DNA from: Candidatus Zixiibacteriota bacterium
GTDB taxonomy: Bacteria > Zixibacteria > MSB-5A5 > GN15 > FEB-12
DNA: 64,000 nucleotides
Assembly (NCBI GenBank): GCA_022571985.1
Contig: JACZWU010000006.1
Location: 124,001-188,000 of the forward strand
Direction of reading: 5' to 3'
The position numbers and the translations under genes were made by a program. The notes under the pieces were generated by a model, which did not search any database, had not been told where the DNA came from, and saw only the letters and a list, made by a program, of their open reading frames with translations. Of this stretch, positions 28,210 through 64,000 are shown piece by piece (the first letter of the stretch is position 1; each line of letters opens with the position of its first letter).

Positions 28210-28516
28210 AGTGGGTCATTTTTAATACTGGACTCAAATGAAAGCTGTTAATGCTTGAAAACGCCCCTATAGCGTTTGAACGGAGTGGATATCAATTTCT
28301 TATTGACTATAAAATCATAAACTGTATATGTTCATAGGGTTAGTTGAATTATAATAGGGAAAGATAAATTTAAGGCCATTGCCAACTATGACGACAAAGC
28401 TCATTAGGAGGATGTAAATTGTGTTCTTTAGCTCTAGTGGAAAATTGATACCAACCAAGTTTGTGAGTTTCCATGATGCATAAATGCTCTATCATTTTAA
28501 CTGCCAGATTTACCTT

Positions 28517-29737
28517 ATGAACCGGTGCAAATTCATAGATCTGTTTGCTGGTTGTGGTGGTCTTTCTTTGGGGCTAATGCAAGCTGGTTGGACTGGGGTT
28601 TTCGCAATCGAAAAATCGCCTGATGCTTTTAACACATTGGAACATAATTTGTGTCGGAAAGGTGCAAAATATAGATTTAGTTGGCCGAGATGGCTGCCCT
28701 GTACTGCAATGACAACTAGACAGCTATTGAACGGCTATTCGAAGGAACTTGCACAAATTCGTGGGAAAATAGATATTATTGCTGGTGGTCCACCATGCCA
28801 AGGTTTTTCGTTTATCGGTCGCAGAAACGTGAAAGATCGAAGAAACAGCCTCACCGGAGAATATATTCGAATAGTTGACATTGTCCGTCCAAGGTTCTTG
28901 ATACTGGAAAATGTCCGAGGATTTCAGGTCGCTTTTAAGAACAAGAAGAAACCTTATTCGCATCATGTTAAAAGAAAATTGGAAAGTTTATCTTGGGGCG
29001 GGTACAACGTCTATTCGCGTTTAATGGAGGCTTCAGAGTCTGGAGTTCCACAGCCCAGGCCCCGTTTCCTCATGTTGGCTGTCAGGCATGATTTGATTTC
29101 GCTTGCCAAGGATCCCTTCGATACACTAGAATCATTGCTTCCGAAATTTAGGCGGAAGCGAAAGCTGTACACTTCAACAACTGTGGTTGAGGCTATAGGC
29201 GACTTGGAATTAGATGGGAAACTCCTTGTAGATTCAAAAGAGAGCAATGGATTTAAACAATTGAAATATCGACAGCCTTCAGTATTGACACCGTATCAAA
29301 GATTGATGAGAAAGCACGTCTCCAAAAGCCACATCCCGAACAGTCTACGATTGCCTAACCATCGGGCAGAAACAATCAAGCGGTTTTCTAAGGTGCTCAA
29401 GATTTGTCCCAAAGGTCGCTCGGTCTCAAAAGACCAGAGGGAGTATTTCAAAATGAAGAAACGATGCTTCACTCCCCTACACCCGCACATGCTTGCCACC
29501 ACTGTTACCACTCTACCAGATGACACATTGCATTATAGCGAACCTCGGATTTTGACAGTAAGGGAAAATGCCAGGTTACAATCTTTTCCCGACTGGTTTT
29601 CTTTTCATGGGAAATATACAACTGGCAGTGTTTTGCGGAAAACAGATTGCCCACGTTATACCCAAGTCGGTAATGCCGTACCTCCATTGATGGCGGAAGC
29701 AATCGGGTTAGCAATGTTAAGGTTTGCCAAGAAGTGA
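28517..29737 (+). CDS. DNA cytosine-5 methyltransferase (Dcm/C5 type)
   Basis: The enzyme transfers a methyl group from SAM to C5 of cytosine in a specific site. Conserved motifs appear in order: I FIDLFAGCGGLSLG, IV GGPPCQGFS with catalytic Cys94, VI ENVRG, VIII QPRPRF and X TQVGNAVPPLMAEAIG, numbered from ATG 28,517 (406 residues). A longer frame from 28,484 adds 11 unconserved residues and neither start has a clear ribosome site. The target-recognition region (about 225-345) gives no hint of the site. Its stop overlaps the next start (GTGA), so it is translationally coupled to the GHKL kinase. With the Vsr gene nearby this is a modification-and-repair pair, and no standard restriction endonuclease is visible. 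Confidence 0.95.
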   Translation: MNRCKFIDLFAGCGGLSLGLMQAGWTGVFAIEKSPDAFNTLEHNLCRKGAKYRFSWPRWLPCTAMTTRQLLNGYSKELAQIRGKIDIIAGGPPCQGFSFIGRRNVKDRRNSLTGEYIRIVDIVRPRFLILENVRGFQVAFKNKKKPYSHHVKRKLESLSWGGYNVYSRLMEASESGVPQPRPRFLMLAVRHDLISLAKDPFDTLESLLPKFRRKRKLYTSTTVVEAIGDLELDGKLLVDSKESNGFKQLKYRQPSVLTPYQRLMRKHVSKSHIPNSLRLPNHRAETIKRFSKVLKICPKGRSVSKDQREYFKMKKRCFTPLHPHMLATTVTTLPDDTLHYSEPRILTVRENARLQSFPDWFSFHGKYTTGSVLRKTDCPRYTQVGNAVPPLMAEAIGLAMLRFAKK

Positions 29738-32055
29738 AAAAACTAGATAAAGTTCACTTTTCTACTCACGCCCGAATTAAGGACGTTCTTGGGCGTGACC
29801 TGATTAACAACGACAATGTTGCAATTATTGAGCTAATTAAGAACTCGCGGGATGCTGGTTCCAAAAGTGTCAGTATTAGTTTTTTTAATGCTGAAGCTGA
29901 AGAGAGTCCTTTTTCTCAACTGATCATCCAAGACTCCGGGTCAGGTATGAACATTGATGATATCAAATACAAATGGCTTAATATAGCATATTCTGATAAA
30001 AGGTTGGCTAATGTATATAGAAGTGTGCCCTACGCAGGCAATAAGGGGATCGGCAGGTTTTCATGTGACAGGTTGGGGGAAACACTCGAATTATTTACTA
30101 GAGTTAGGAATGGAGACCTCATTTATGTAGAAATTGATTGGGCAGATTTTGAGATAGACGACCGTGACAAGAAAGTAAGCGACATCCGACTCTCAGCATA
30201 TAGGCTTACTGACTCAGAATTCGCGAGTCAAACTGGAATAGAAAAGTTAAAGAATGGGACAATCCTCATCATTAAGTCACTCCGTAGTACTTGGGACATC
30301 AAAAAGCTTAGAGGATTACGGAAAGAGTTAGAACGTTTTGCAATTGATCGCGAGAGGCGGTTCAAGGTCTACCTCAATGCATTGGATTACAAGGATGAGA
30401 AAGACTTGAATGGATTAGTTGAAAACAAGATTTTTGACAAGCTAGATTTCAGGACTACTTCTATTCATTCAAGTATTGACAAATACGGAAAGAAAATTAA
30501 AATAACTCTCAAGCACAACGCCAACGAAGTTTTTACTCTCATTGAAAAGAACCCGTTTGGGCTTCTTTCGAACATTGATGTAGCGTTGTATTATTTGAAC
30601 CAACCGGCAAAGGCGTACTTCAAGCGTGAAACCGGTTATAGTGTTAAGGATTTCGGCTCGGTTTTCCTTTTTCTTAACGGCTTCAGGGTTACCCCGTACG
30701 GAGAGCCCGGTAATGACTGGCTTTCAATTGACTTTCGAAAGGCACAAGGATTTAAGAGATTACTTGGAACGAGGGATATTGTCGGATTTGTTGAGATCAC
30801 GGATAAGAAATATTTGTTCAAGGCAACTTCCAGCCGCGAGGGTCTTGTAAGCAACGATGCATACAATCAACTCGTTTCTAACCAACTGCAGGTTACTTCA
30901 AGTTTGGACAGCACAAGACTATATGGGTATGTGCAAAACCTTTTGCGAAAACATCAAAGGTTTGTTGTTGAGGGGCTGGATTGGGATAGGATAAAAAGGG
31001 TGCTCAGTCAAGAAGGCGAAGATCTGGAACTCACAAAGTATGAATTCCAGAACAGGGACAAGAACATTCTTGAGTCGCTAGCTTCAATTATTCATTTGAA
31101 TAGTATTAAAGAGAATATTTTTAAAGTAACATTCAATAAGAAGTACTTGATTCAATTGGCGGCTAAAGAGATTTCTTCCTATGATGTCCTTCTTAAAGAC
31201 CTAAAAGAAAAATTTAAAGGACTTCCCATTTCCCAGCTCAAGCCTTTAGACAAAAAGGACATTTATAAGTACATTGAAAGGCAAGCCAAAGCACTAAAAG
31301 CGAAAGAAGCAACTGCCATTCGTCTCCAAAAACGGATCGCGAAGGCAGAAAAAACTGCGGAACAACTAACAAGTGAAAACCTGTTTTTACGTGCACAATC
31401 GAACGAGGATTTAGATGATATAATAAATCTTCATCACCAAACGATTGATTATGCAAGTACTATAAATACAGAAATTCAAAATTTCAGACATGAGATTAGT
31501 GAAAAGATTGACACTAAGACTATCAAGGGGTTTTTGGACAAAATAGAGTATCTAAACAACAAAGTATTAAAAATCTCCCGCTTAGCAACACACGCTAATT
31601 TTAGAATGTCTTCAGCAAAAAAGAAAGGAGAACTATTTACGTTCATAAAAAAGTACTTGGTTACCCTGTCCGAGCATGGAATTACGCGTGACCTTGAGAT
31701 TACGGATAAGATTCCAGAGCACTTCCAGCTTGTCCGGCGGTTTAGGCCTTTGGAACTGACTATGGCAATTGACAACTTTCTCGCTAATGCAAAGAAAGCA
31801 GAAGCTTCGCGGATTCAATTTGGGGCGAAAAAAGAGGGGAGTTCTTTCCTGATTACAATTTCCGACAACGGTAATGGCTTGAGCAAGGACATTGAATATC
31901 CTGATTCAATTTTCGAAAAGGGAGTTACGACGACGAAAGGATCTGGATTGGGCCTTTATTTCTTGAAAGAAATTGTAACTCAGGATTTGGAGGGTGAAGT
32001 TTCGGTTGTAAACAGGGCAAAGGGAAGGTTTACTATAGGGATTAAGCTCAAATGA
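29734..32055 (+). CDS. Dual-GHKL protein: MORC-like ATPase fused to histidine-kinase module
   Basis: This 773-residue protein has two GHKL ATPase folds. The N-terminal one (about 1-190) has N-box ELIKNSRDAG (33-42), QDSGSGMN (66-73) and GNKGIGRFS (102-110), as in MORC/paraMORC, MutL and Hsp90 proteins. An S5-like segment follows (about 190-420, ending TSSREGLVSNDAY). Coiled coil occupies about 500-580. A possible phospho-acceptor His586 lies in NFRHEISEK. The C-terminal kinase ATPase has N-box DNFLANAKKA, SDNGNGLS and TKGSGLGLYFL (about 735-745). It overlaps both neighbours by 4 bp and is followed by a receiver protein, so a phosphorelay is likely. MORC-like ATPases associated with restriction-modification are described (Iyer, Abhiman and Aravind 2008). 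Signal sensed: unknown, perhaps DNA topology or methylation state. Confidence 0.85.
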   Translation: MKKLDKVHFSTHARIKDVLGRDLINNDNVAIIELIKNSRDAGSKSVSISFFNAEAEESPFSQLIIQDSGSGMNIDDIKYKWLNIAYSDKRLANVYRSVPYAGNKGIGRFSCDRLGETLELFTRVRNGDLIYVEIDWADFEIDDRDKKVSDIRLSAYRLTDSEFASQTGIEKLKNGTILIIKSLRSTWDIKKLRGLRKELERFAIDRERRFKVYLNALDYKDEKDLNGLVENKIFDKLDFRTTSIHSSIDKYGKKIKITLKHNANEVFTLIEKNPFGLLSNIDVALYYLNQPAKAYFKRETGYSVKDFGSVFLFLNGFRVTPYGEPGNDWLSIDFRKAQGFKRLLGTRDIVGFVEITDKKYLFKATSSREGLVSNDAYNQLVSNQLQVTSSLDSTRLYGYVQNLLRKHQRFVVEGLDWDRIKRVLSQEGEDLELTKYEFQNRDKNILESLASIIHLNSIKENIFKVTFNKKYLIQLAAKEISSYDVLLKDLKEKFKGLPISQLKPLDKKDIYKYIERQAKALKAKEATAIRLQKRIAKAEKTAEQLTSENLFLRAQSNEDLDDIINLHHQTIDYASTINTEIQNFRHEISEKIDTKTIKGFLDKIEYLNNKVLKISRLATHANFRMSSAKKKGELFTFIKKYLVTLSEHGITRDLEITDKIPEHFQLVRRFRPLELTMAIDNFLANAKKAEASRIQFGAKKEGSSFLITISDNGNGLSKDIEYPDSIFEKGVTTTKGSGLGLYFLKEIVTQDLEGEVSVVNRAKGRFTIGIKLK

Positions 32056-33002
32056 AACTGGATTACAATATCCTTTGGTGCGAAGATAGCATGGATTGGT
32101 TTGAGGCAAAGTCAAAACAGGTAGAACGCCATATAACCGAATTAGGTTTTCTTCCGAGCATTACGCTAATTGCCAATGCTAACACCACAAACTTTGATAA
32201 CGCAATAAAGAAATCCCAAACTTTTGATATTATTCTTGTCGACTATAAGATCGATGGTGAGTCCTTCGGCGATAAATTAATTAAACATATTAGAAATCAC
32301 AACGTGTTTGCAGAAGTCGTCTTTTATTCAGGCAAAACAAAAGCTGAGCTTTATAAGGCCGTGGCCGATAGCGAGCTTGACGGTGTCTATGTTGCGCTTA
32401 GGGAAATCGACTTTATTGATAAAGTTAAAAATGTAATAGATACCACTGTTAGAAAAGTGCTTGATGTGAATAACATGCGTGGCATTGTGATGGCTTTTAC
32501 CTCTGTCATAGACAAACAGATTTTTGAAATAATTAGGATCTTTCATGACAATCACATACCCGACGACGAAAGAATGGAACAATTCAGGAAAACTCTTCTA
32601 CAGAGAATTGAAAAAAGGATCAGTGAGCAGGAGAATACTTGTAAAGATGTAAATGTAGATGACCCCTGGGACTACCTTAGCTCAACGGTACATTTTGGAT
32701 CGCAATTGAGAGTTATCACTCTTCGTAAAGATATTCTCGAAAAGGCTTTTCAAGCAAAAAACCCTTCAAACAAATGGTATGCAGTCTATCAAAACGTATT
32801 AAAGTTCGAGCAGGAGACAAACCCAAATAGAAACCGTTTGGCACATGAAAGTGAAAAAGTGATAAGCAATGAAGATGGATCTATAGCGATCAAAATCGGT
32901 GCTGTCACTTTTGATCTTGAAACGGCAAAGCAATGGCGAGCCGATTTGATTAAACAGGCAAAGTCCATAAATGAATTCCACGAAGCGCTCAAGCCAAAGT
33001 AA
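32052..33002 (+). CDS. Response-regulator receiver fused to a HEPN-like C-terminal domain
   Basis: The protein has 316 residues and starts at ATG overlapping the kinase stop (ATGA). The receiver domain (about 1-135) has acidic residues Glu11-Asp12, phospho-acceptor Asp64 in IILVDYKID and Ser93 in FYSGKT with its Lys. The rest (about 140-316) is helical and not a known DNA-binding output. It carries RNRLAH (Arg260-X4-His265), which matches the R-X4-6-H active-site motif of HEPN ribonucleases. If that reading is right, phosphorylation may switch an RNA-cutting effector. Alternatively the motif is a chance match in a helical dimer domain. The gene ends 4 bp from the convergent Vsr gene. Confidence 0.78.
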   Translation: MKLDYNILWCEDSMDWFEAKSKQVERHITELGFLPSITLIANANTTNFDNAIKKSQTFDIILVDYKIDGESFGDKLIKHIRNHNVFAEVVFYSGKTKAELYKAVADSELDGVYVALREIDFIDKVKNVIDTTVRKVLDVNNMRGIVMAFTSVIDKQIFEIIRIFHDNHIPDDERMEQFRKTLLQRIEKRISEQENTCKDVNVDDPWDYLSSTVHFGSQLRVITLRKDILEKAFQAKNPSNKWYAVYQNVLKFEQETNPNRNRLAHESEKVISNEDGSIAIKIGAVTFDLETAKQWRADLIKQAKSINEFHEALKPK

Positions 33003-33515: not shown

Positions 33516-33734
33516 CTAGAATTTTCCTAATTGTTGCAATGCTGAAATGTATACCTCTCCGGATTTTGAATCAACCCACTTCTTAACTTTCTCAAAATTA
33601 AATCGTATATGCTTCCCCAGTTTGATATAGGGAATGTCAGTATTCCGTATCCAGTACTTGACAATACTCGGTTTCACACGGCAGAATTCGGCCACATCTT
33701 CAATAGTCCAGAGTTTTTCAGAAGATTGTTTCAT
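33516..33734 (-). CDS. Excisionase-family HTH protein
   Basis: This 72-residue protein has a MerR-like/HTH_17 winged helix: WTIEDVAEFCRVKPSIVKYW, then IPYIKLGKHIRFNFEKVKKW. Such small proteins act as recombination directionality factors or regulators. The start overlaps the stop of the HerA-like ATPase upstream (ATGA), so it is the last gene of a minus-strand unit. It probably assists one of the tyrosine recombinases of the island; which one is not determinable here. Confidence 0.8.
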   Translation of the reverse strand: MKQSSEKLWTIEDVAEFCRVKPSIVKYWIRNTDIPYIKLGKHIRFNFEKVKKWVDSKSGEVYISALQQLGKF

Positions 33735-35809
33735 TTTACAAGGAAATCTCCAGCCAAAACCACTTTTATTTTGTCCCGATATACACCCAGTCGCGAATCA
33801 ACGGAAATCAATTGTTCAAGTTCTCTTTTTGCCTTGCCGTCTTTTGTTGCAATTAACAACCGGCTAGGCTTCAACTCAGTGCTAAAATTCTTAACTATAT
33901 TGTTAATCTCTTTTTCTAAAGGTGGTGAGATAGCTATTTCAATGAATAGTAATTGAGGATGGTTCCGAAGGACTACGTCAACTGCTTTATTATTGGATAA
34001 GAAGAATTCAATATCGACAGTGAACCCGTGTTTCTTCGCCCACATCCGAATGTGATGAGCGACAAATTGGTGTAAGTAACCGCCTTTTGAATTGAGTCCT
34101 GGCTTAGTTACCCCTACAAACCTGAAAGCAGCCTCAGTAGGCTCAGGCACTATCAGAAAACTTTTACCAACTTGCAGACGATGCTCCACTATATAAGCTA
34201 ATCTGATCAACTCACTCTTTACCTTGGATTGAGTCGAGCCACTTGTAATACGAGTGATGCTCAGCAGTTGACGCCACGTAATCAAGCGATCTGGCAAGTT
34301 TAACCATATTTTTATCAAGGATTCTGCTAGTTCGCGTGCCTTAGTTTTCTGTAATCCTGATTTCTGCCTGGCTAACCTGACATTAGCTGAAGTGTGTGAA
34401 AATCTGTCCCCCGCCCTTTTCTCGGACACGACGGTCCTTAGATCTGTTCTATTAACACCGGACTGTCGATAGAGTCTTTCTTTCTGTTCTTTCTGATGCC
34501 GCCAAAATGCTATCCAATCAACACAAGTAGGTTCTTCAAACTTGTAGAATTTCACTGGCAGCGGTTCCATGTATCCGCCAGCCATTCTGATAATAGCCTC
34601 GCCCGTTTCAAGGCTATGCAAAGATTCGGATTGTTGTGATGTTAGTGCCATTGCTTGAGACATGGTGGTCACCTCGCCTCCGCTCGAAAGATGAAAACAA
34701 ACCTTCAAATATGAATTGTTTAGAACGCTTTTCAGAAGAGTAGAGGGCTCCTGTGAGAGCGAGCAGATAGCCATATTAAGAGCACGTGCTTCATCAACAA
34801 GTTTTGTTATCAAGGAAGCACTTCGTTTGTGTTCGCTATACTCTTTAGCTCTTGAGAAAAGCCTGTGTTGACATTCGTCCATAATGTCGATTGTTAAATG
34901 TCTAGCAGAAGGGTTATATGTTCGATAAAAAGAGTCCCACAATAGAAGAAATTCACTTAGAAAAGATTCGATTTCAGACATCAAGCCTGTGGTTGAAAGA
35001 ATGAGTTGTTTGTCAGAAAGCACCTGAAGCATCTCTGAGTTTGTAGTAATGACTTCTCCCAAAGTATATAAAAGCAATTCTAATCTTGAGGTTACAGTTG
35101 AGAGTATTATTGCGTCTTTGTGTTTAAATCTTTGGGGAGTTGATACAATTGCGTGGAGCAAATCGATAATTGTAGCATCTGGATTGCGTTTAAAAAGATT
35201 TGCCAGAGTTTTAAGGATTACAGATTCTGCGCCATGCCAGAAATTTAGAGTTTCAGACAGATGCCCCGTAACAACTTGATGCCAGACATCAATCGGGACG
35301 TTGGGTGGAGGCTTTAACGGATTAAATCTGAGGTCTTTCCAATTCAGGCACAACGTATCAGGATATTTTGCGGCTAATGGAATATATTCTTCTGCTTTAG
35401 GGTCATTTATTTTTACTGAGTGAATTCCTGCTTGATAAGCAGATTCTGCCAGTACAATTGCAGCATTTGTTTTGCCGGAGCCTGAAGTGCCTGCAAATAC
35501 TAAATGCCTTGGCGTTTTCTCTAATGGTAATCTTAATTCAATCGCACTCTTGCCCAGGATTTTGCCTAATTTAAGTTCCCCAACTATAGAGTCCTGATTA
35601 GCAGGCAGATCAAAGTCATCATTTACATAGTAGTTTCCGTCCAGCTTCGCTAATAAGTAGCTATAAAGGCTGTGGGCAAGCGTTGGATTCCAATAAACTG
35701 ACAATGAGTCAAGGCCACTTTCAAACCAATCCTCAGTTACTCGGGCCTTATTCTTCAATTCTTCTAGTATTGCTAGGTCTATATTCTGGAAATCTATCAT
35801 AACTATCAT
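33731..35809 (-). CDS. HerA/VirD4-like ATPase with possible C-terminal nuclease-like domain
   Basis: This 692-residue protein has a RecA-like ATPase domain at about 85-420 with Walker A FAGTSGSGKTN, Walker B HLTIDIMDECQHR and a sensor region AICSLSQEPSTLL, as in HerA/DUF87 and conjugative coupling proteins. There is no N-terminal membrane segment. Residues about 580-685 have a helix-strand pattern NNKAVDVVL and LLFIEIAISPP that loosely resembles PD-(D/E)xK nucleases (Asp...Glu-x-Ala, Lys missing). It probably pumps DNA for transfer or replication of the element. It overlaps the Cys-rich gene upstream by 62 bp; ATG 35,800 is an alternative start. Confidence 0.82.
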   Translation of the reverse strand: MIVMIDFQNIDLAILEELKNKARVTEDWFESGLDSLSVYWNPTLAHSLYSYLLAKLDGNYYVNDDFDLPANQDSIVGELKLGKILGKSAIELRLPLEKTPRHLVFAGTSGSGKTNAAIVLAESAYQAGIHSVKINDPKAEEYIPLAAKYPDTLCLNWKDLRFNPLKPPPNVPIDVWHQVVTGHLSETLNFWHGAESVILKTLANLFKRNPDATIIDLLHAIVSTPQRFKHKDAIILSTVTSRLELLLYTLGEVITTNSEMLQVLSDKQLILSTTGLMSEIESFLSEFLLLWDSFYRTYNPSARHLTIDIMDECQHRLFSRAKEYSEHKRSASLITKLVDEARALNMAICSLSQEPSTLLKSVLNNSYLKVCFHLSSGGEVTTMSQAMALTSQQSESLHSLETGEAIIRMAGGYMEPLPVKFYKFEEPTCVDWIAFWRHQKEQKERLYRQSGVNRTDLRTVVSEKRAGDRFSHTSANVRLARQKSGLQKTKARELAESLIKIWLNLPDRLITWRQLLSITRITSGSTQSKVKSELIRLAYIVEHRLQVGKSFLIVPEPTEAAFRFVGVTKPGLNSKGGYLHQFVAHHIRMWAKKHGFTVDIEFFLSNNKAVDVVLRNHPQLLFIEIAISPPLEKEINNIVKNFSTELKPSRLLIATKDGKAKRELEQLISVDSRLGVYRDKIKVVLAGDFLVK

Positions 35810-40064: not shown

Positions 40065-41396
40065 CTAAGGGGAACCTACAGGGATATTTTTTTTATTTAC
40101 TGCAACAAGCGGAACCCTTACATGAACCGGTTCTGTAAATCTATCTTTCAATTTGACTATTGCCTCACCTACTTTTAGTTTGTCTATGTAGCGCAGTTCT
40201 TCAGTTGTTAAGTTCATAGATTCAGCCATACTCTTAATGTCTTTTCCATGACCTAGATTAAAGCAGATTTTGCAATTTGTATTGGCCATTATTGAATTAG
40301 AAAGTTTACTTGGTTCCTGGTCTATAACAATTACTGATTCTCCAAATTCTCTGATCATTCTTATAATAGTCTCAATAATGGTTTCTTCACCGAGCTGAAA
40401 TTCTTTTTTTCCACTTAGGATATGATGAGCTTCTTCAATTACAATGGCGTGTTTGAATAGCTCACGTTGTGGTTGGTTTTTCCTGTAGTGATATATCCAG
40501 AGAAGTAGTGATTCAATTAAGAAGATCTTTTCTATTGTTGCCAGATTGTCCATTTCCAGTACAATTTGTTGGTTTAGTAGCTCATCAAGATTTGGTTGTT
40601 GTCTAACGTTTAGAGTTTCTCCGAGTAGACCAGAAAACGTTAGGCTAGCTAATACTCTCTTGGCTGAACTCATCCATAACATTTCTCTTCCTCTGACGAA
40701 TTCCTTTTGTAGCAGCTTTTCAAGGTCAATGAAAGTTGGATATTCCTGCTTGCCTTCGTAAATTCCAAATTGTTTGTAAAGGTGGTCAATACCTTTTCTG
40801 AAGAAATACTCTACTCCGTGTGCAACGAAAAAAGCATGTTTTATGACGTCTACTAACATCGTCATCCAGTGTTTGGCATGTATTCCTTCTGGTGGAATAA
40901 GCGGATTGAAAATCAGATTGTCTTTTTTACTGCCAACTCTAATGATTTTTAGATTTCGAAACTCTGGAAACTGCTTCAAGGCTCGATAATTCTGCTTCCA
41001 GTCAAAAATGAGAAATGGCTTTTCATGATGAGCTAGCTGTCGAAGTAAGTGGAACATCAAATTGGTTTTGCCTGCGCCGGTCATACCTACAATCAGGATA
41101 TGTTTGATGAACTCAGGACCGCGAAGACCGAATTCTGCGTAAGGAATGTCTGGATAAAGAACACTTCCTATATGATATTTACCTTCAAGGTCGATTGCTG
41201 GAGGTGGGGGTAATCTGATAGTTTCTTGGTAATCTACTTTGCTGGTTCGGTCTGCGATTAACTTTAAGAAATCTTTGTTTCTTTGGGCGGTGACTGAATC
41301 TTTTGCTAACAGATTATAGTACCAAAGACCCTTAGTCTTGCTGCCCAAAAGCGGCTTAAGTTTTCTGAGGAGGTCGTCTGTTTCTGATGTTTTCAT
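40065..41396 (-). CDS. HerA-like DNA-translocating ATPase
   Basis: This 443-residue protein has Walker A IVGMTGAGKTNLMF at about 103-116, Walker B FKHAIVIEEAHHIL at about 320 and a conserved VIVIDQEPSKLSNSI after it, as in HerA/DUF87 and conjugative ATPases. It has no transmembrane segment. An N-terminal beta-rich region (HIGSVLYPDIPYAEFGLRG) resembles the HAS-barrel area. It is distinct from the longer ATPase at 33,731. Likely a motor for transfer or replication of the element. The 5' end overlaps the coiled-coil gene by 41 bp, so the two are probably expressed together. Confidence 0.86.
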   Translation of the reverse strand: MKTSETDDLLRKLKPLLGSKTKGLWYYNLLAKDSVTAQRNKDFLKLIADRTSKVDYQETIRLPPPPAIDLEGKYHIGSVLYPDIPYAEFGLRGPEFIKHILIVGMTGAGKTNLMFHLLRQLAHHEKPFLIFDWKQNYRALKQFPEFRNLKIIRVGSKKDNLIFNPLIPPEGIHAKHWMTMLVDVIKHAFFVAHGVEYFFRKGIDHLYKQFGIYEGKQEYPTFIDLEKLLQKEFVRGREMLWMSSAKRVLASLTFSGLLGETLNVRQQPNLDELLNQQIVLEMDNLATIEKIFLIESLLLWIYHYRKNQPQRELFKHAIVIEEAHHILSGKKEFQLGEETIIETIIRMIREFGESVIVIDQEPSKLSNSIMANTNCKICFNLGHGKDIKSMAESMNLTTEELRYIDKLKVGEAIVKLKDRFTEPVHVRVPLVAVNKKNIPVGSP

Positions 41397-56498: not shown

Positions 56499-57310
56499 AT
56501 TAGCCCCTCCAATAAATTTACATACAAATTCTGTTAGGCTTGTAGCAAGTTTCGCCACAGGAGTATAGGCGAGTCGCTAGTCATACAATATTGGTATAAT
56601 CCCTGCGTACTCCGGTAAATTGCTATACACACTGTAAGTTGTCAAGCTCTTTTTTTCGAATTAAACATAGCAGTGACCACTCTTTAGAATAGCCAAAGCC
56701 TTGTTAATAAACGAAGTTTACTGTCAAGGTACTTTTAGTAACAAGAATTGCTGTAATTAGGGCTCATTTGATCCGTATTAGTTTTGACCTGCCCCCCATA
56801 TATAGGACCAATTTAAGAGTTACTATATTGTGCTTAATCAAGGAAAGATAATCAAATAGGCAGGACTATAAAAATAATCCTGCCCAACGCAGGGCTGTCT
56901 CTGAGTGAGACAGAGGGGGGCTTTTGAGAATTACTATAGTTTAGGAAATTGTCCAAAAATGTCAACATCTAATTTTCTGCTCAGGTGATTTTTTTGAATT
57001 CAGGAACCTAAATTTACTGGATTTTCAATTCTTATGGCAGTTTTATAGTTCTTACCCCTGCTACAAGTTTCACATTTATCCTATTCCACATAACTTCATG
57101 ATACTCATTTCTTTACTCCCTTACACTCATTTCAATTTTTCACTTAACGCTATTTCTCTGGCTCAGTAAGCTTTTCCATTTCCACTGGAAATGCCACTCT
57201 GATCTCTGGAGGTTCCGCTCTCATAGATCCTCCTTAAAAGCATATCTATCCAGAGAAATCAGAGACGCTATGAAAAATCATCAATACAGTTGTAAGGAGG
57301 TGGCAGAATA
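56499..57310. other. Intergenic region with several hairpins
   Basis: No credible gene is seen in this 812-bp stretch. Hairpins: CCTGC/GCAGG (56,879-56,893), CTGTCTC/GAGACAG (56,895-56,913), and a larger imperfect one CTCTGATCTCTGG (57,197-57,209) pairing with CCAGAGAAATCAGAG (57,250-57,264), enclosing GGAGG/CCTCC. It separates two divergent gene groups, so promoters and possibly an RNA element lie here. Confidence 0.45.
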
Positions 57311-57478
57311 ATGACAACATCAAATGGAAAAGGCGATAAGCCTGATTTCAAAGGTTCACTTGACGTAGCTGCATGGTTTAATACTGACAGCGACGGCAAC
57401 ACCTATTTGTCTGTAGTGCTTGGAAACCGTATCAAGCTCGTCAAGAATGAGCAAAAGCTGGAAGACCAGTTCATGTGA
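57311..57478 (+). CDS. Small conserved-looking protein (55 residues)
   Basis: A strong AAGGAGG lies 11 bases upstream of ATG 57,311. The product (FKGSLDVAAWFNTDSDGNTY then LSVVLGNRIKLVKNEQK) has the compact strand pattern of small single-strand-binding-like or DUF736-like element proteins; this is a guess. It precedes the large integrase by 372 bp. Too short for long-frame lists but with good initiation signals. Confidence 0.6.
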   Translation: MTTSNGKGDKPDFKGSLDVAAWFNTDSDGNTYLSVVLGNRIKLVKNEQKLEDQFM

Positions 57479-57850
57479 GCTGGTTTGGTTTTCACTAAAG
57501 TTTTATTTATTTTTTTTTGCTTTTTTAACTCAAGATATAAGAACTCTCTATGGCAATTCTACAAATATCAACTTGTAATACAAAAACACGAACAAGCAAA
57601 TCTCGTGTACGACAGTATTTTCACATTGCAAAAAATTCAGTTATGCATGCTACTTAGCCACGACGGAAACCGAAAATCTTAAATACTCCAGTGTCTTTAC
57701 TAATTCAAATTAACTGATCACAAGACTATAAATTGTCTGTGTAGCTCCTGAGATTAACAGATTAGTTCTTCGCCTGGTGCGGGCGTAGGCTATTTCTGTT
57801 ACAAAATAGGGGCAAAGTATAAGTGCTCCAACTGCATTACAAATGAAACA
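57479..57850. other. Intergenic gap before the large integrase
   Basis: A 372-bp A+T-rich stretch. I see no gene, repeat or hairpin I can support. It probably holds the integrase promoter and possibly its binding sites. Confidence 0.4.
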
Positions 57851-59104
57851 ATGAATCAGTCAGAAATTCAGTTGCATCCTGAAGGCAAAATCGACGTTCA
57901 CCAGCGGCAGCAACGTTATAATGCGGCATTCCTAAAGTTCACACACAAGAATACAGTCATAGCCGAAAACAAGAAGTTGATACTAGAATTCCTCAGGGAC
58001 TGTGCGCTCGGAAAAACAGTGATTGGCAGGAGTAAAAAACGTATTGGTCCGGCCCGTTGCCACAAGTATCTCAGCATCCTTGGTCAAGTTTCCAATTGGT
58101 TGGGTAAGTCATTTCTGGCTGTTATGCAGCACGACATGGAAAATCTGATTGAACGTCTTGAAGGAGACCGACTTATCTCAGCCAAAGGCAAACCATTTGC
58201 CGAGGCAACTAAAGCAGACATAAAGAAAACCATTAAAAAGTTCTGGAAGTGGAAAGATGGAAAAAATAAGACCTATCCTGAGCTTGTAGAGTGGATTGAG
58301 TCATACGACCCTGTGAAGGACGTACAGGCTTTGCGAAAAGAGGAAGTAGAAAAGATGGTTGAGCACTGTGCCAATCCAAGGGACAAGGCACTTCTGATGG
58401 TGCTGTTGGACTCCGGAGCGCGGGCAGAAGAGCTTCTTAATGTACGGCTGAAGTCGGAACATCTAGTATGGAAAGAAGATCTGGGCTGTTACAAGATGAG
58501 AATTGAATTTAGTAAGACCAAGCCTAGGACTATATCGCTGCCGCTATGTACCAATCACTTGCGAGCATGGCTTGATGTACATCCTGCTAAGGGCAATGAC
58601 CAAGCCCAGTTATTTCCAATGTCTTATGGCAATTTGAGGATGCAAGTTCGTAGAATTGGGCAGAGGGTGCTCGGAAAGAAGGTTTCTCCTCATATGCTGA
58701 GGCACAGCTCTGCCACATTTTATGCGAACAAACTAAGCAGATACCAGCTATGCTACAGGTATGGTTGGACAATGTCCAGCAGGGTAGTGGATAGGTATCT
58801 TGATCGCGAGGGGATTCTCGAGGAAGGAATAGCTGATGTTGTGAAGGCGGATGAGATGCTAACCGCACACAAGCAGAATCAGACTTTGAGAGAAGAGCTT
58901 TCCTTGGTTAAGGAATCTAATGCTGAATTGGCATCAAGATTCCAAGAGCTGCAAGAAGAGCTTCAAGCCATTAGGGACGGTAAAGGATGGCTGAGCATGC
59001 TGATGGATTTGAAGAGGCGCCAGGACTGCCTGGCTGAGATGGTTAAGGGAAAGAAAAGGGATGGATTTGATTTTGTATTCGAGAATGGAGATCGCGTTAC
59101 GTGA
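57851..59104 (+). CDS. Tyrosine recombinase with archaeal-type features
   Basis: This 417-residue protein has an N-terminal helical DNA-binding region (about 20-160). Catalytic motifs: Arg in LLDSGARAEELLNV, HxxR in SPHMLRHSSATFY, and Tyr in VVDRYLDREG after YRYGWTMSS. The 'GWTMSS...YLDREG' ending resembles recombinases of archaeal viruses and integrative elements rather than XerC/D (from memory). A C-terminal coiled coil (ELSLVKESNAELASRFQELQ, about 345-385) is an unusual addition. Likely acts on an internal or second element. Confidence 0.87.
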   Translation: MNQSEIQLHPEGKIDVHQRQQRYNAAFLKFTHKNTVIAENKKLILEFLRDCALGKTVIGRSKKRIGPARCHKYLSILGQVSNWLGKSFLAVMQHDMENLIERLEGDRLISAKGKPFAEATKADIKKTIKKFWKWKDGKNKTYPELVEWIESYDPVKDVQALRKEEVEKMVEHCANPRDKALLMVLLDSGARAEELLNVRLKSEHLVWKEDLGCYKMRIEFSKTKPRTISLPLCTNHLRAWLDVHPAKGNDQAQLFPMSYGNLRMQVRRIGQRVLGKKVSPHMLRHSSATFYANKLSRYQLCYRYGWTMSSRVVDRYLDREGILEEGIADVVKADEMLTAHKQNQTLREELSLVKESNAELASRFQELQEELQAIRDGKGWLSMLMDLKRRQDCLAEMVKGKKRDGFDFVFENGDRVT

Positions 59105-59682
59105 CATGTGTATCAGGAAGAAGATTGAATGAGCGGAGGATTTGTCCATCCTTCGGATGGGGATGGGTGTTACCCGGCGCTTCGCGCCGGGCTGGTGTTA
59201 TGTGAGTCTCTAAAGAGGGGTGATTGTGGATAACCTACGGTTTCCATGGATATTGACGGTTTCTGGGGTTAAGTTGTTGGGAATTAACGGGGTATATGGA
59301 AGAGGAGTAATAATAGGGCTAGGAATTGGAAACCGTTGCTTAAATATCGCACTAACTGAGAAAAGCTATAAAAGGATTAATTGCTGAAATCACGTAGTTC
59401 CAATACTCATACATCACTGTGCCAGTATGTCAACCCAATAAAGGCAGTTAGTTGTCTTTCGAACTTAAAGGCCTAATGTACTTTCTGTCACGCTGAGTTG
59501 CTTTACCACAAGGTCTTGAAATATTATAGTGATTAGCATATATTTATTTTGTTCTCTGTGAGAATTTGAGGGCGAAAATTAATAGATCATAAGTAATAAG
59601 CATGGATTAAAATCAATTCTCCTTTAATGAATAGCCCGATTAATAGGACTGAAACGAAAGTACTGACGAGCACCATGACAAT
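59105..59682. other. Intergenic region with two TTC-loop hairpins
   Basis: CCATCC-TTC-GGATGG (59,146-59,160) and CCCGGCGC-TTC-GCGCCGGG (59,173-59,191) follow the integrase stop closely, but neither has a T-run, so they are not simple terminators. They could be extragenic palindromes or recombination folds. No gene seen in the rest. Confidence 0.5.
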
Positions 59683-60735
59683 ATGAAAATAGCCATAACA
59701 GCGGACCTGCACCTCAGGAATAGTGGCGAACACCCCGAACGATATAATGCTTTGCAGAACATCTTCGAACAGACAACCGCCGAAAGTATCGAACACCTAA
59801 TCATCGCTGGAGATCTGTTTGACAAGGACTTCCACGACTACTCTGAATTTGAGGCCCTCTGCAAGAAATATAGCAAGCTCCAACTGCATATAATCCCGGG
59901 CAACCACGATCCGAATATTAGCGGTAAAAGAATAGTTGGGAACAACATTCAAATTTACACAGCCCCCACTGTCATTGAGATAGATTCCACGACTCTTCTT
60001 TTCATACCGTATGAAGAGAAAGTATCATTGGGCGAGAAAATCGCCGAAAAGGAAGTGCAAATAGTCGGAAAAAATTGGATCCTTGTTGCTCATGGTGACT
60101 TCTACGAAGGAGTAAAAGAACAAAACCCCCAAGAACCTGGAGTTTATATGCCGATTTCAAGGAAGGATCTAGATAGATTCAATCCTAGAATCGTTCTCCT
60201 CGGCCACAGTCACCAGCCATTGAGCCAAGGTAAGGTCCATTTCCCAGGCTCTCCTTGTGGCTTGGGCATCAACGATAAAGGAAAAAGAAGTTTTCTGGTT
60301 TATGATACGTCCGATGAAAACATCTTTCCTAGAGTTGTCAACACAGATATTCTATTTTTCGACGAATCCTTTATAATCGTACCAGCTGACAACGAACTTG
60401 ATTTTCTCCAACAAGAGATTAAGAAAAGGATAGAGTTCTGGAACATTGACCCTTCCGATTACGCCAAGGTTCGGGTTAGAGTTAAGGCCGTGGGTTACGC
60501 GACAGATAGGGGTACAATACAAGCAGCGCTTAAACAGGGATTTGAGAAATTTAAGTATTTTAATGACGAAGGTCCGATGATTGACGAGCTGTCAGTAAGT
60601 TTGGATCACCAATTAGCAGCGATAGCCGAACAAACTACGAAGCTCATTGATGAGCTTGACTGGGCCTTTGGAGGGGATGAACCGACCAAAGACCAAGTGA
60701 AAATCGCGGCATTATCTATTATCTACAAAGATTGA
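59683..60735 (+). CDS. Mre11/SbcD-like metallophosphoesterase
   Basis: This 350-residue protein belongs to the DNA-repair exonuclease family. Metal-binding motifs: ADLHL (Asp8, His10), GDLFD (Asp44), GNHD (Asn74-Asp76), VAHGDF (His137) and LGHSHQP (His175, His177), as in SbcD/YhaO/Mre11. The C-terminal ~130 residues are a capping-like region. The stop codon sits 8 bp before the TTG start of the Rad50-like partner. The pair probably processes DNA ends, as an island defence or repair module. Confidence 0.92.
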   Translation: MKIAITADLHLRNSGEHPERYNALQNIFEQTTAESIEHLIIAGDLFDKDFHDYSEFEALCKKYSKLQLHIIPGNHDPNISGKRIVGNNIQIYTAPTVIEIDSTTLLFIPYEEKVSLGEKIAEKEVQIVGKNWILVAHGDFYEGVKEQNPQEPGVYMPISRKDLDRFNPRIVLLGHSHQPLSQGKVHFPGSPCGLGINDKGKRSFLVYDTSDENIFPRVVNTDILFFDESFIIVPADNELDFLQQEIKKRIEFWNIDPSDYAKVRVRVKAVGYATDRGTIQAALKQGFEKFKYFNDEGPMIDELSVSLDHQLAAIAEQTTKLIDELDWAFGGDEPTKDQVKIAALSIIYKD

Positions 60736-60743
60736 GGTCAACG

Positions 60744-62855
60744 TTGGCTATTAGGATTGACAGAATAAAGGTGAACCGGGGTGGCCCGCTGCGAAGCGAT
60801 TTCGAGCTCAAGGCAGGTGATTTGAACCTTATTTATGGGCAGAACGAGACAGGAAAAACATACATAGTGGAGACGATGATAAATTTCCTTTTCAGGACTG
60901 GTAGCAAGTCCCCCGCCAAATGGGAGCTTAGGGATTGGGACGCGAATGGAAGAATTATTGTCTCTGGGTTAAAGGACAAGCTACTGTCGTTTACGAAAAC
61001 TGGAAAGAAGCTTGAGTATTTCTGGGAAGAAGTTTCGGGACTGCCCAGTGACCTATCTCGCTTACTCGTTGTAAAAGCAGGCGATACTCTGTTAACAGAG
61101 GATGACATAGATGGTGTTGGCAGGCGCATACTCAAAGATTGCCTTTCCGGTAAAGGGTTTCTCGACAGCATAGCGAAGAGAATTCCTGTTACGCTACAAA
61201 AAGCGACAATACTGAATCGCCAGATCGTCGGTGAACAAAGAGGTGAACTAATCAATAGGGTCGATTGCGAGGCACGACTCCAAAAATTGAACACTCTTCG
61301 AAAGGATTTCGAAGATGACTACGCCACCGGAGAGGTATATTCCCTCCGACAGAAAAAGGAAATGACAGAAGCCGAGCTCAACAACCTTGAGAAGGCAAAG
61401 CGCTATTTTGCTGGGCAGCTGCACGAACAGATACAGACATTACTCAAGAAAAAGGGAGAGCTCCCCGCCGAAGAAAGCCTCACAAAGCTCGAAAAAGATA
61501 TTGGCATTTACAACATGAAACAAGCAGAAGCTAAGACTAAACTAGATAAGCTCAGCGAATTGGAGGGTAGCAGCGACAACTATAGGTGGGCAAGGGCTGC
61601 ACGTGAAGACTACTCGGAGATTGTTAGCAAACAATCCGAGTCAGGGCCAAAGCCAATCTTGATAGTCCTCGCATTTCTTTTTTTTCTGGTCGCCGTCATA
61701 ACAGGCTTATTTGGCTTGAATATTCCCCTTATTGCCTGTAGCATCGCTGCGATAGTTTTCTTCTTTTTGTACTATATGAAAACTAAGAATGCGCTTGCCA
61801 TACAGGGCAAAAGCGAGGAGTTGGATAAACTCAAGCTAGATTATAGCAAAAGGTTCGGTTCCGAGCTCACCAACAAGGCGGCCCTCAATGCGCAACTCGA
61901 GAAACTCAATGAAAACTACATCCGCGCCAATACTCTGAGGGAAGCGTCGAGCGAGCTTACACTTGAAGTCAATACCTACAAGATCAGAATTACCAAAACC
62001 CTAAAAGACTTCACAGGTGCAGAAAAGCAGCCGCAGCAATGGGAAGAGTCAGTCAGGTCCCTCAAGAAAGAAAAAAAGGAACTTGAAGAAGAAATTCTCT
62101 CAAGAGAAAGAAAACTTATCTCATTGGGTGTGAAAGAAGGAGAGTTCCTTGACAAACATCCAGGAGTGGAGTGGGACACCAACCGATACGATATCGTCAG
62201 TGAAGAGCTATCAGACATAGATGAAAATTTAAATGAAAAGTTGACAAAACTAGACGATCTGATAGTTCGGATTAACCAAGAAACTGGCTCACGAAGTAGT
62301 GAGTGGGAAATCTTGTTCACTGAGCTCAGTTACTTGTGTAATCAAGTTTCAGAAGAATACAAGAATATTACTTCTGGCATTCTTGCAAAAGTGATGGTCA
62401 GCTCCGTTATTGAGGAATTCCGTAAAAAAGAAGATTCTAGAATAGAAAACGGTTTGAAGCGGGACGAGGTTTTGAAGCCCCTCCAAGCTCTAACGGTAGG
62501 GAGGTATAACAAAATAACGCTCGATGAAGAAAAGGGACTGATCCTAGCTACAGCCGAGGACGAGGAATTTCCACTTGTAGACATTAGCACTGGCGCCCGG
62601 GAACAAATTCTCATCGCACTCAGAATCGGTTTTGCGTCGATAGTAATGGAAGGGCAAGCTGCATTTCTAATCCTCGATGATGCCTTTCAGCATTCCGACT
62701 GGGATCGCCGGAAGAATATGGTTGACTACACCATAAACCTTGTAAAGAATGGATGGCAAATTTTCTACTTCGCCATGGATGACCACATAAGGGATTTGTT
62801 TCTGAACAATGGGAAGAAGTTGGGAGTTAGGTTTCAAAGCTTGGAACTGCATTGA
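60744..62855 (+). CDS. Rad50/SbcC-like ATPase with an internal membrane hairpin
   Basis: I chose TTG 60,744 because GAGG at 60,734-60,737 gives good spacing; the longest frame starts at TTG 60,732. About 703 residues. Walker A LIYGQNETGKT lies near residue 30-40, the ABC signature VDISTGAREQILIALR near 610 and Walker B AAFLILDDAFQH near 640. Charged coiled-coil regions lie at about 180-300 and 360-560. In the middle (about 302-350) are two hydrophobic helices (ILIVLAFLFFLVAVITGLF and IACSIAAIVFFFLYYM). This resembles YhaN-type rather than typical SbcC proteins (from memory). Probably complexes with the Mre11-like protein at the membrane. Confidence 0.88.
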   Translation: MAIRIDRIKVNRGGPLRSDFELKAGDLNLIYGQNETGKTYIVETMINFLFRTGSKSPAKWELRDWDANGRIIVSGLKDKLLSFTKTGKKLEYFWEEVSGLPSDLSRLLVVKAGDTLLTEDDIDGVGRRILKDCLSGKGFLDSIAKRIPVTLQKATILNRQIVGEQRGELINRVDCEARLQKLNTLRKDFEDDYATGEVYSLRQKKEMTEAELNNLEKAKRYFAGQLHEQIQTLLKKKGELPAEESLTKLEKDIGIYNMKQAEAKTKLDKLSELEGSSDNYRWARAAREDYSEIVSKQSESGPKPILIVLAFLFFLVAVITGLFGLNIPLIACSIAAIVFFFLYYMKTKNALAIQGKSEELDKLKLDYSKRFGSELTNKAALNAQLEKLNENYIRANTLREASSELTLEVNTYKIRITKTLKDFTGAEKQPQQWEESVRSLKKEKKELEEEILSRERKLISLGVKEGEFLDKHPGVEWDTNRYDIVSEELSDIDENLNEKLTKLDDLIVRINQETGSRSSEWEILFTELSYLCNQVSEEYKNITSGILAKVMVSSVIEEFRKKEDSRIENGLKRDEVLKPLQALTVGRYNKITLDEEKGLILATAEDEEFPLVDISTGAREQILIALRIGFASIVMEGQAAFLILDDAFQHSDWDRRKNMVDYTINLVKNGWQIFYFAMDDHIRDLFLNNGKKLGVRFQSLELH

Positions 62856-63231
62856 TTGTGCTTAACATGACAAAACAATCGTTTATGGCTGACTTAAACT
62901 TTTCTAACAATTTTCTAACAACGAACTTCACTTTGCTTCAACCAACTTAACCCAACTTCAACTAACTTCACTCAACTTAACCTTGACAGGTTAACGATTT
63001 ATGCTTAAGTTTCACTATTGTGTGGAGCTAGCAAAATACCTTGCGGAGAATTGGATCATTTTGCTGCCAGCCTAATCGTTTTTATCAACCGGTTTAGAAG
63101 TATTATTGAATGTTCACGAGTACAATTGAAATCAGGTAAAACCATAAGGGTCAATCAGGAGAAAACTGAACGGAATACATTAATGACCTATAGAAAATTT
63201 TCAATAAAGAATTTGATACCATAAAGTTTCC
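62856..63231. other. Candidate right end of the island with att-like and short tandem repeats
   Basis: CTTAAACTTTTCTAACA (62,893-62,909) and a second TTTTCTAAC copy (62,909-62,920) mirror the motif after tRNA-Ser (26,981-26,998). They are followed by degenerate repeats of AACTTAACC and AACTTCA (about 62,924-62,985) and a TTAACC...GGTTAA palindrome. No tRNA fragment of useful length is seen. A short frame at 63,018-63,224 is not supported as a gene. Confidence 0.45.
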
Positions 63232-63260
63232 TTGACACTTGCTCAAAAATTACATATTCA
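63232..63260 (+). promoter_or_regulatory. Sigma-70-type promoter of the distal epimerase gene
   Basis: A -35 TTGACA (63,232-63,237), 17-base spacer and -10-like TATTCA (63,255-63,260) lie 40 bases before ATG 63,300. A good GGAG ribosome site lies at 63,290-63,293. Sequence evidence only. Confidence 0.6.
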
Positions 63261-63299
63261 AGCGATTCGGTGGAATTGTCAGTATAGTAGGAGCTAGGG

Positions 63300-64000
63300 A
63301 TGAGAAAAATACTTGTTACCGGAGGTGCTGGATTCATCGGTTCTCACCTTGTTAAGTCATTGGTGAAAAGCGATTGTCAAGTGCGAGTGATTGACAATTT
63401 TTACACTGGCCGAGAAGAGAACCTAGAGGGTTGTTTAAACCAGATTGAGCTGTTTCGATATGATGTGCGAGACTTGAAAGCACTTAAAGAAGTCGCAAAG
63501 AATGTTTCTCAAGTATATCATCTTGCAGCCGTTTCTTCTGTGCCCCAATCCGTTGACGATCCGCAGACTACATTTGAAATTAATTTGACTGGAACATGGA
63601 ACGTGCTCGAGGCATCCCGTATTAATAAAGTTGACCGAGTAGTTTTCGCCTCATCGGCGTCAGTTTACAATTCACGTACAAATATTCCATTCAAAGAATC
63701 CATGTCACTACTTCCTAGTTCTCCGTATGCGACCAGCAAACTTATTGGTGAACAATTATGCGATTTGTATCTCTCGCTTTACAATTTAAAAACAGTATGT
63801 CTCCGATTGTTCAGCGTTTACGGGCCCCGTCAGAATCTTCATCCACAATATCCGCACGTCATTCCGAGTTTTGCCACGCGATTACTTAAGAAGGAAACTC
63901 CAGTTATTTACGGAAATGGTCGACAGACAAGAGATTTCATATTTGTAGATGATGTTGTTCAGGCATTGCTACGGGCGGGCAGCAGTAGTGAAGTTATTGG
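63300..64000 (+). CDS. Extended-SDR sugar-nucleotide epimerase/dehydratase, cut by the right edge
   Basis: Translated from ATG 63,300; the frame is open at the window end (233 residues seen). It has an NAD-binding TGGAGFIGSH, a YATSK active-site motif preceded by ASSASVYN, and the substrate loop RLFSVYGPRQNLHP and GNGRQTRDFIFVDD. It is typical of UDP-sugar or dTDP-sugar epimerases. Expected to serve surface polysaccharide synthesis. As it lies beyond the att-like repeats, it may be host backbone next to the tRNA-Ser island, or cargo just outside it. Confidence 0.92.
   Translation, partial: MRKILVTGGAGFIGSHLVKSLVKSDCQVRVIDNFYTGREENLEGCLNQIELFRYDVRDLKALKEVAKNVSQVYHLAAVSSVPQSVDDPQTTFEINLTGTWNVLEASRINKVDRVVFASSASVYNSRTNIPFKESMSLLPSSPYATSKLIGEQLCDLYLSLYNLKTVCLRLFSVYGPRQNLHPQYPHVIPSFATRLLKKETPVIYGNGRQTRDFIFVDDVVQALLRAGSSSEVI

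Follow-up and report, generated by a model that had tools for sequence, protein, structure and literature searches.

A Mre11-Rad50-like gene pair with a probable membrane hairpin at the zinc-hook position in a variable locus of a Zixibacteria genome

The window analysed in this work, a stretch of 64,000 nucleotides, belongs to a Candidatus Zixiibacteriota genome of 2.93 Mb. A first-pass annotation of the sequence had placed a Mre11-Rad50 pair at 59683-62855, and open reading frames were indeed found at these positions, with homologs and structure matches that support the identity of both products (Table 1). The genes were said to lie 8 bp apart, which is the distance between the stop codon of the Mre11-like gene (TGA, 60733-60735) and the TTG at 60744 with which the ATPase gene opens. 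An AGG-type ribosome site for the ATPase lies at approximately 60734-60738 and overlaps that stop codon, and homologs open with 'M(A)IRIDRI' at the same start residue as the 703-aa protein. The gene after the ATPase encodes a sugar epimerase. Between the two lies an intergenic stretch (62896-63051) that carries short AACTTCA-type repeats. It has counterparts at G000:C5:207331-207488 (77%) and, within the sister species, at G002:C16:273723-273875 (69%), and is possibly a mobile or regulatory element. No structured RNA was found in 56500-64000.

Table 1. Features of the gene pair and of the upstream recombinase gene, in window coordinates.
Feature	Coordinates	Strand	Basis
Tyrosine recombinase upstream of the pair	57851..59104	+	Pfam Phage_integrase 1.3e-10; orthologs in the sister species and other relatives
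Mre11/SbcD-like nuclease subunit, 350 aa	59683..60735	+	Pfam, profile match, residue check, AlphaFold
Rad50-like coiled-coil ABC ATPase, 703 aa, TTG start	60744..62855	+	Rad50 matches; homologs share the start residue
Walker A, GQNETGKT, residues 32-39	60837..60860	+	Homolog comparison
First coiled-coil arm, approximately residues 168-297	61245..61634	+	AlphaFold helices 168-194, 197-238, 243-274 and 277-297
Hydrophobic helical hairpin, residues 305-342, zinc-hook position	61656..61769	+	Predicted transmembrane
Second coiled-coil arm, approximately residues 378-571	61875..62456	+	AlphaFold
ABC signature STGAREQ, residues 615-621	62586..62606	+	Homolog comparison
Walker B and D-loop FLILDDAFQHSDWDRR, residues 641-656	62664..62711	+	Subfamily hallmark

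The product of the first gene matched the Pfam family Metallophos (calcineurin-like phosphoesterase) at 4e-15, and the best matches of its subfamily profile were E. coli SbcD and the archaeal and Thermotoga Mre11 structures. All eight Mre11 metal ligands are present (D8, H10, D44, N74, H75, H137, H175, and H177), and in the 14 homologs checked these active-site residues are retained wherever the sequence spans them. The AlphaFold model of the protein is confident, with a pLDDT of 90.5. Class-mates have the same pair layout, and in two of them the nuclease partner is without key metal ligands (L035 4130-5239 and L039 8229-9359). In these proteins GNGD or GARD takes the place of GNHD and there is no GHxH, a sequence pattern that suggests nuclease-dead versions of such pairs.

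The second product retains an intact Walker A motif, signature, and Walker B/D-loop, the last with the hallmark DDAFQHSDWxRR. The catalytic Glu of Walker B is replaced by Asp in all relatives compared, including those of the YhaN type. The C-terminal lobe matched solved Rad50 structures in sequence (2e-6), and the first fold match of the AlphaFold model was Rad50 in the Mre11-Rad50-Nbs1 complex (7zr1, 2e-11), followed by SMC-family proteins that included the Lamassu protein LmuB (9hqx). The usual joint between Rad50 proteins is a zinc hook at the apex, which is thought to link DNA ends. The first-pass annotation had seen no CxxC of such a hook, and none was found anywhere in the 703-aa ATPase or in 13 relatives.

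At the position of the hook, at mid-length of the ATPase, the same annotation had described a two-helix hydrophobic hairpin, and the charge pattern, the conservation pattern, and the structure model all bear this out. Residues 305-323 and 324-342 form two adjacent, charge-free segments of 19 residues with KD values of 3.09 and 2.29, respectively. AlphaFold places apical helices at 305-321 and 326-355, with a low local pLDDT of approximately 54-64 and an overall pTM of 0.50. Both helices are predicted to be transmembrane. Their flanks are basic, with approximately 3 K+R vs 0.8 D+E per 10 aa, the loop of the hairpin is short and nearly uncharged, and the coiled-coil background is net negative.

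Segments were scored across homologs with the Hessa scale in a position-weighted form, and both segments were required to score negative. By this strict rule, both were present in 69 of 93 homologs vs 3 of 257 controls, which were ORFs of at least 400 aa. The centre of the hairpin in these 69 proteins was at 0.49 ± 0.03 of the protein length, and most of the remaining homologs kept one such segment. Among 14 subfamily members, pairwise identity was lowest in the hairpin (0.20) of the seven regions compared, yet its hydropathy was constant (KD 1.71 ± 0.26). A hairpin that is the least conserved region in sequence and is always hydrophobic resembles lipid-facing helices in this respect. Chance or mis-scoring as the source of the hydrophobicity was rejected by the homolog and control counts, the hydropathy, and the hydrophobic moment given below. 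As a further control, a Spirochaetales genome with a relative of the hairpin pair also holds a canonical SbcCD, and its SbcC, which is truncated by the contig end, carries a CxxC at 533 but lacks a hydrophobic segment.

The hairpin might also work outside the membrane, if those of two Rad50 subunits packed together and the resulting hydrophobic bundle of four helices took the place of the zinc hook as a soluble dimer joint. The hairpin occupies precisely the position of the dimerising hook of SbcC/Rad50, and the helical hairpin given by AlphaFold fits a membrane segment and a bundle alike. However, the helices are hydrophobic on all faces and non-amphipathic (mean Eisenberg H 0.78, moment 0.16), whereas the coiled-coil stretches of the same proteins gave −0.23 and 0.25. 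Besides, the helices are charge-free in most members and basic-flanked, and the hairpin sequence is free to drift, unlike a packed interface. Such a soluble joint is improbable, and the sequence evidence gives good support to a hairpin that probably inserts in the membrane. In the open literature, we found no paper describing a membrane hairpin in YhaN, although an earlier description may exist in the original SbcE paper.

Relatives were searched with a three-sequence profile in one genome per species, covering 84,980 species. Thirteen relatives from about 10 phyla covered the ATPase at full length or nearly so, with identities of 27-62%. They came from a deltaproteobacterium, Gemmatimonadota, Spirochaetota, two Aegiribacteria, Fermentibacteria, Hydrogenedentota, Nitrospinota, a Euryarchaeota MAG, Verrucomicrobiota, Elusimicrobiota, Planctomycetota, and Chloroflexota. 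All 13 keep the Mre11 gene directly upstream of the ATPase and keep the hairpin, and in the 23 closest loci Mre11 adjoins the ATPase without exception, with no recurring third gene. The Mre11 tree and the ATPase tree recover the same main groupings (the window with L045, L048 with L050 and L052, and L053 with L055), and most phyla occur once in them. Since the trees are concordant and the adjacency is constant, the pair looks inherited and transferred as a unit, and it appears to move between phyla in this form. The pair layout is also found in most of the more distant matches, which include YhaN types of Bacillus, Facklamia, Enterococcus, and Clostridia. A central hydrophobic segment was found in 56 of 57 distant loci, and the single exception is a broken ORF. 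The presence of the hairpin across distant YhaN types makes it a trait of a broad branch and not of this genome alone. Mre11-Rad50 complexes that carry a hairpin where the hook would be form a broad branch that has been little studied. Viral contigs, phage records, and IMG/VR contained no relative of the pair, which says nothing for or against defence, and the plasmid search returned distant haloarchaeal SMC-family ATPases only.

The sister species (G002) is collinear with this genome on both sides of the locus, at 84% for window 56855-57525 and at 88% for the equivalent of 76889-82521, which lies beyond the window. The 18-19 kb between these flanks differ between the two species, except for orthologous tyrosine recombinases that are 56% identical. 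By synteny, the variable segment extends from approximately 57.5 kb to approximately 76.9 kb in window coordinates. The view that the pair is carried on an island agrees with this difference from a collinear relative, and its placement near the island end holds for the recombinase end but not for the far end. On this synteny, the pair is a non-native insert beside the recombinase, apparently acquired horizontally, and the recombinase is probably linked to the variable locus.

The rest of the variable region in the window holds a tRNA-Ser with an adjacent integrase. A duplicated 3' end of this tRNA-Ser was considered as an attachment site near the pair and was rejected, as the window contains no copy; elsewhere in the genome it matched only one stretch, with 74% identity and on another contig. 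After the tRNA-Ser and integrase comes a tight row of genes at 28484-33002, a possible restriction or defence operon. It encodes a C5-cytosine methylase, a 773-aa protein in which the GHKL ATPase domain occurs twice, and a response-regulator-like protein. HerA-like helicase genes lie at 33731-35809 and 40065-41396, and the second scores to the mads_8 and HerA defence profiles.

In both species a Mre11-Rad50 pair directly follows the recombinase, but the two pairs are unrelated. That of the sister species (L037 4010-7791; G002:C16:250009-253790) encodes proteins of 383 and 877 aa, and its ATPase has no hairpin and no CxxC. Genes for an OLD/GajA-like nuclease and an 838-aa phosphoesterase protein follow this pair. 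A two-TM ORF of 101 aa behind the sister pair was considered as a membrane anchor in trans and rejected, because it overlaps an ORF on the opposite strand, which we take by eye to be KTSR-like, a plausible identity. The idea that the sister pair is the native SbcCD of the family, replaced here by the window pair, was unsupported, as the sister ATPase is absent from all other genomes of the family. In a third relative (G058; L155 7237-14240), a Lamassu-type operon (LmuA 4e-120) comes directly after the recombinase ortholog, and its LmuB-like ATPase seems to be divided between two ORFs. Nothing recognised as defence lies beside the recombinase in five other genomes. Defence-like or Mre11-Rad50 genes accompany the recombinase in three of the eight genomes that have it. 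The recombinase as a general carrier of Mre11-Rad50 pairs was rejected, since this pairing is found in this genus only.

The nuclease gene of the pair is the only SbcD-like gene of this genome, while within the family an SbcD-like gene occurs in 42 of 54 genomes. In the genomes of 5 of 10 relatives, the pair likewise provides the only SbcD-like gene, as found by comparing match coordinates with the loci, although most comparison genomes are incomplete MAGs and this count may partly reflect gaps. The genes around the relatives' pairs are mostly housekeeping genes, with RecBC in one case.

These observations bear on the function of the pair. A membrane-rooted nuclease at the envelope could be a defence module that cuts the ends of phage or plasmid DNA on entry. 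The patchy spread over about 10 phyla, the transfer as a unit, and the variable locus beside a recombinase would suit such a role, as would the other Mre11-Rad50 pair and OLD/GajA-like nuclease at the same spot in the sister species and the Lamassu genes directly after the orthologous recombinase in another relative. However, the pair matches no complete known defence system, and PADLOC, in which no family covers it, gave only weak matches to LmuB/AriA heads. The mostly housekeeping neighbours in relatives, the defence-like or Mre11-Rad50 genes in only three of eight recombinase genomes, and the position of the pair as the sole SbcD-like system of this genome and of several others also speak against defence, which we regard as unlikely. 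The wider proposal, that inner-membrane Mre11-Rad50 complexes form a widely exchanged class of sentinels that catch foreign DNA where it enters the cell and cut its ends, is more doubtful still.

We favor, with a probability of roughly 0.55, a horizontally acquired, SbcEF-like Mre11-Rad50 complex that would act as a membrane-tethered stand-in for SbcCD. In such a complex, the hydrophobic helical hairpin would replace the zinc hook and insert into the inner membrane. A membrane-rooted coiled coil would then carry the ATPase heads and the Mre11 nuclease at its cytosolic end. This coil would be about 19-20 nm long, at approximately 130 residues per arm and 0.15 nm per residue. The complex may bind DNA ends close to the membrane and trim them there, gated by ATP, and blocked or broken DNA ends would then be processed by it in place of SbcCD. 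A role in repair would be in line with SbcEF, which is reported to be involved in double-strand break repair, its precise role being poorly characterised (PMC6452273).

A helper in DNA uptake, trimming or handling DNA at the membrane in natural transformation or conjugation, is a further candidate. SbcE/YhaN is linked to repair and competence in a title cited in PMC4205851, and the hairpin and the pair architecture are common to the Bacillus loci. However, no competence or transfer genes were found beside the pair, here or among the relatives' neighbours examined, and the window ATPase, which in profile comparison aligns with YhaN in the C-terminal head region alone, is apparently not its ortholog; we consider this role very improbable. 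For the branch that includes the B. subtilis-type SbcEF, which appears to have a membrane-type hairpin at the Rad50 apex, insertion of the hairpin would hold the complex at the membrane, change the picture of DNA-end processing in these cells, and could explain the link of SbcE to competence.

Compared with known systems, the window ATPase resembles Lamassu LmuB in being Rad50-like, in its similar size (LmuB, approximately 650-700 aa), in the fold match to 9hqx, and in a weak profile match. Lamassu contains an LmuA effector and LmuC, whereas the sole partner here is Mre11, and neither the pair nor the adjacent recombinase matched LmuA or LmuC; many LmuB proteins have a zinc hook (PMC10586767). 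With SbcCD and Mre11-Rad50 the pair shares a nuclease and a coiled-coil ABC ATPase, all Mre11 metal ligands, the Walker A and signature motifs, and the Rad50 fold as the top structural match. It differs in that the ATPase has no CxxC hook, a hydrophobic hairpin in its place, and a short coiled coil, and in that the nuclease scores 28-33 bits with the NCBIfam SbcD model, far below the cut-off of 77.65. Of the known systems, the nearest to the pair is SbcEF (YhaN/YhaO), which occurs in Bacillus and other Firmicutes and consists of a COG4717-type ATPase with a Mre11-like nuclease, and the comparison with YhaN/YhaO proposed at the outset found the layout and the hairpin in common. As in SbcEF, a Mre11-like gene precedes an adjacent Rad50-like ATPase gene, the hydrophobic hairpin lies at mid-length without a zinc hook, and Walker B has Asp in place of Glu. 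Unlike SbcEF, the ATPase has 703 aa instead of approximately 910-1010 aa, its subfamily has the strong private motif noted above, and the gene downstream is the epimerase instead of one of yhaM type or YhaM size. Pfam AAA_27 gave 20.6 bits on the ATPase protein (cut-off 22) and 23.4 bits in the genome search. With hhalign, the match to Bacillus YhaN had a probability of 99.7% but was significant over residues 487-688 only, the C-terminal head region, so that the window pair probably forms a separate subfamily, apart from the YhaN orthologs.
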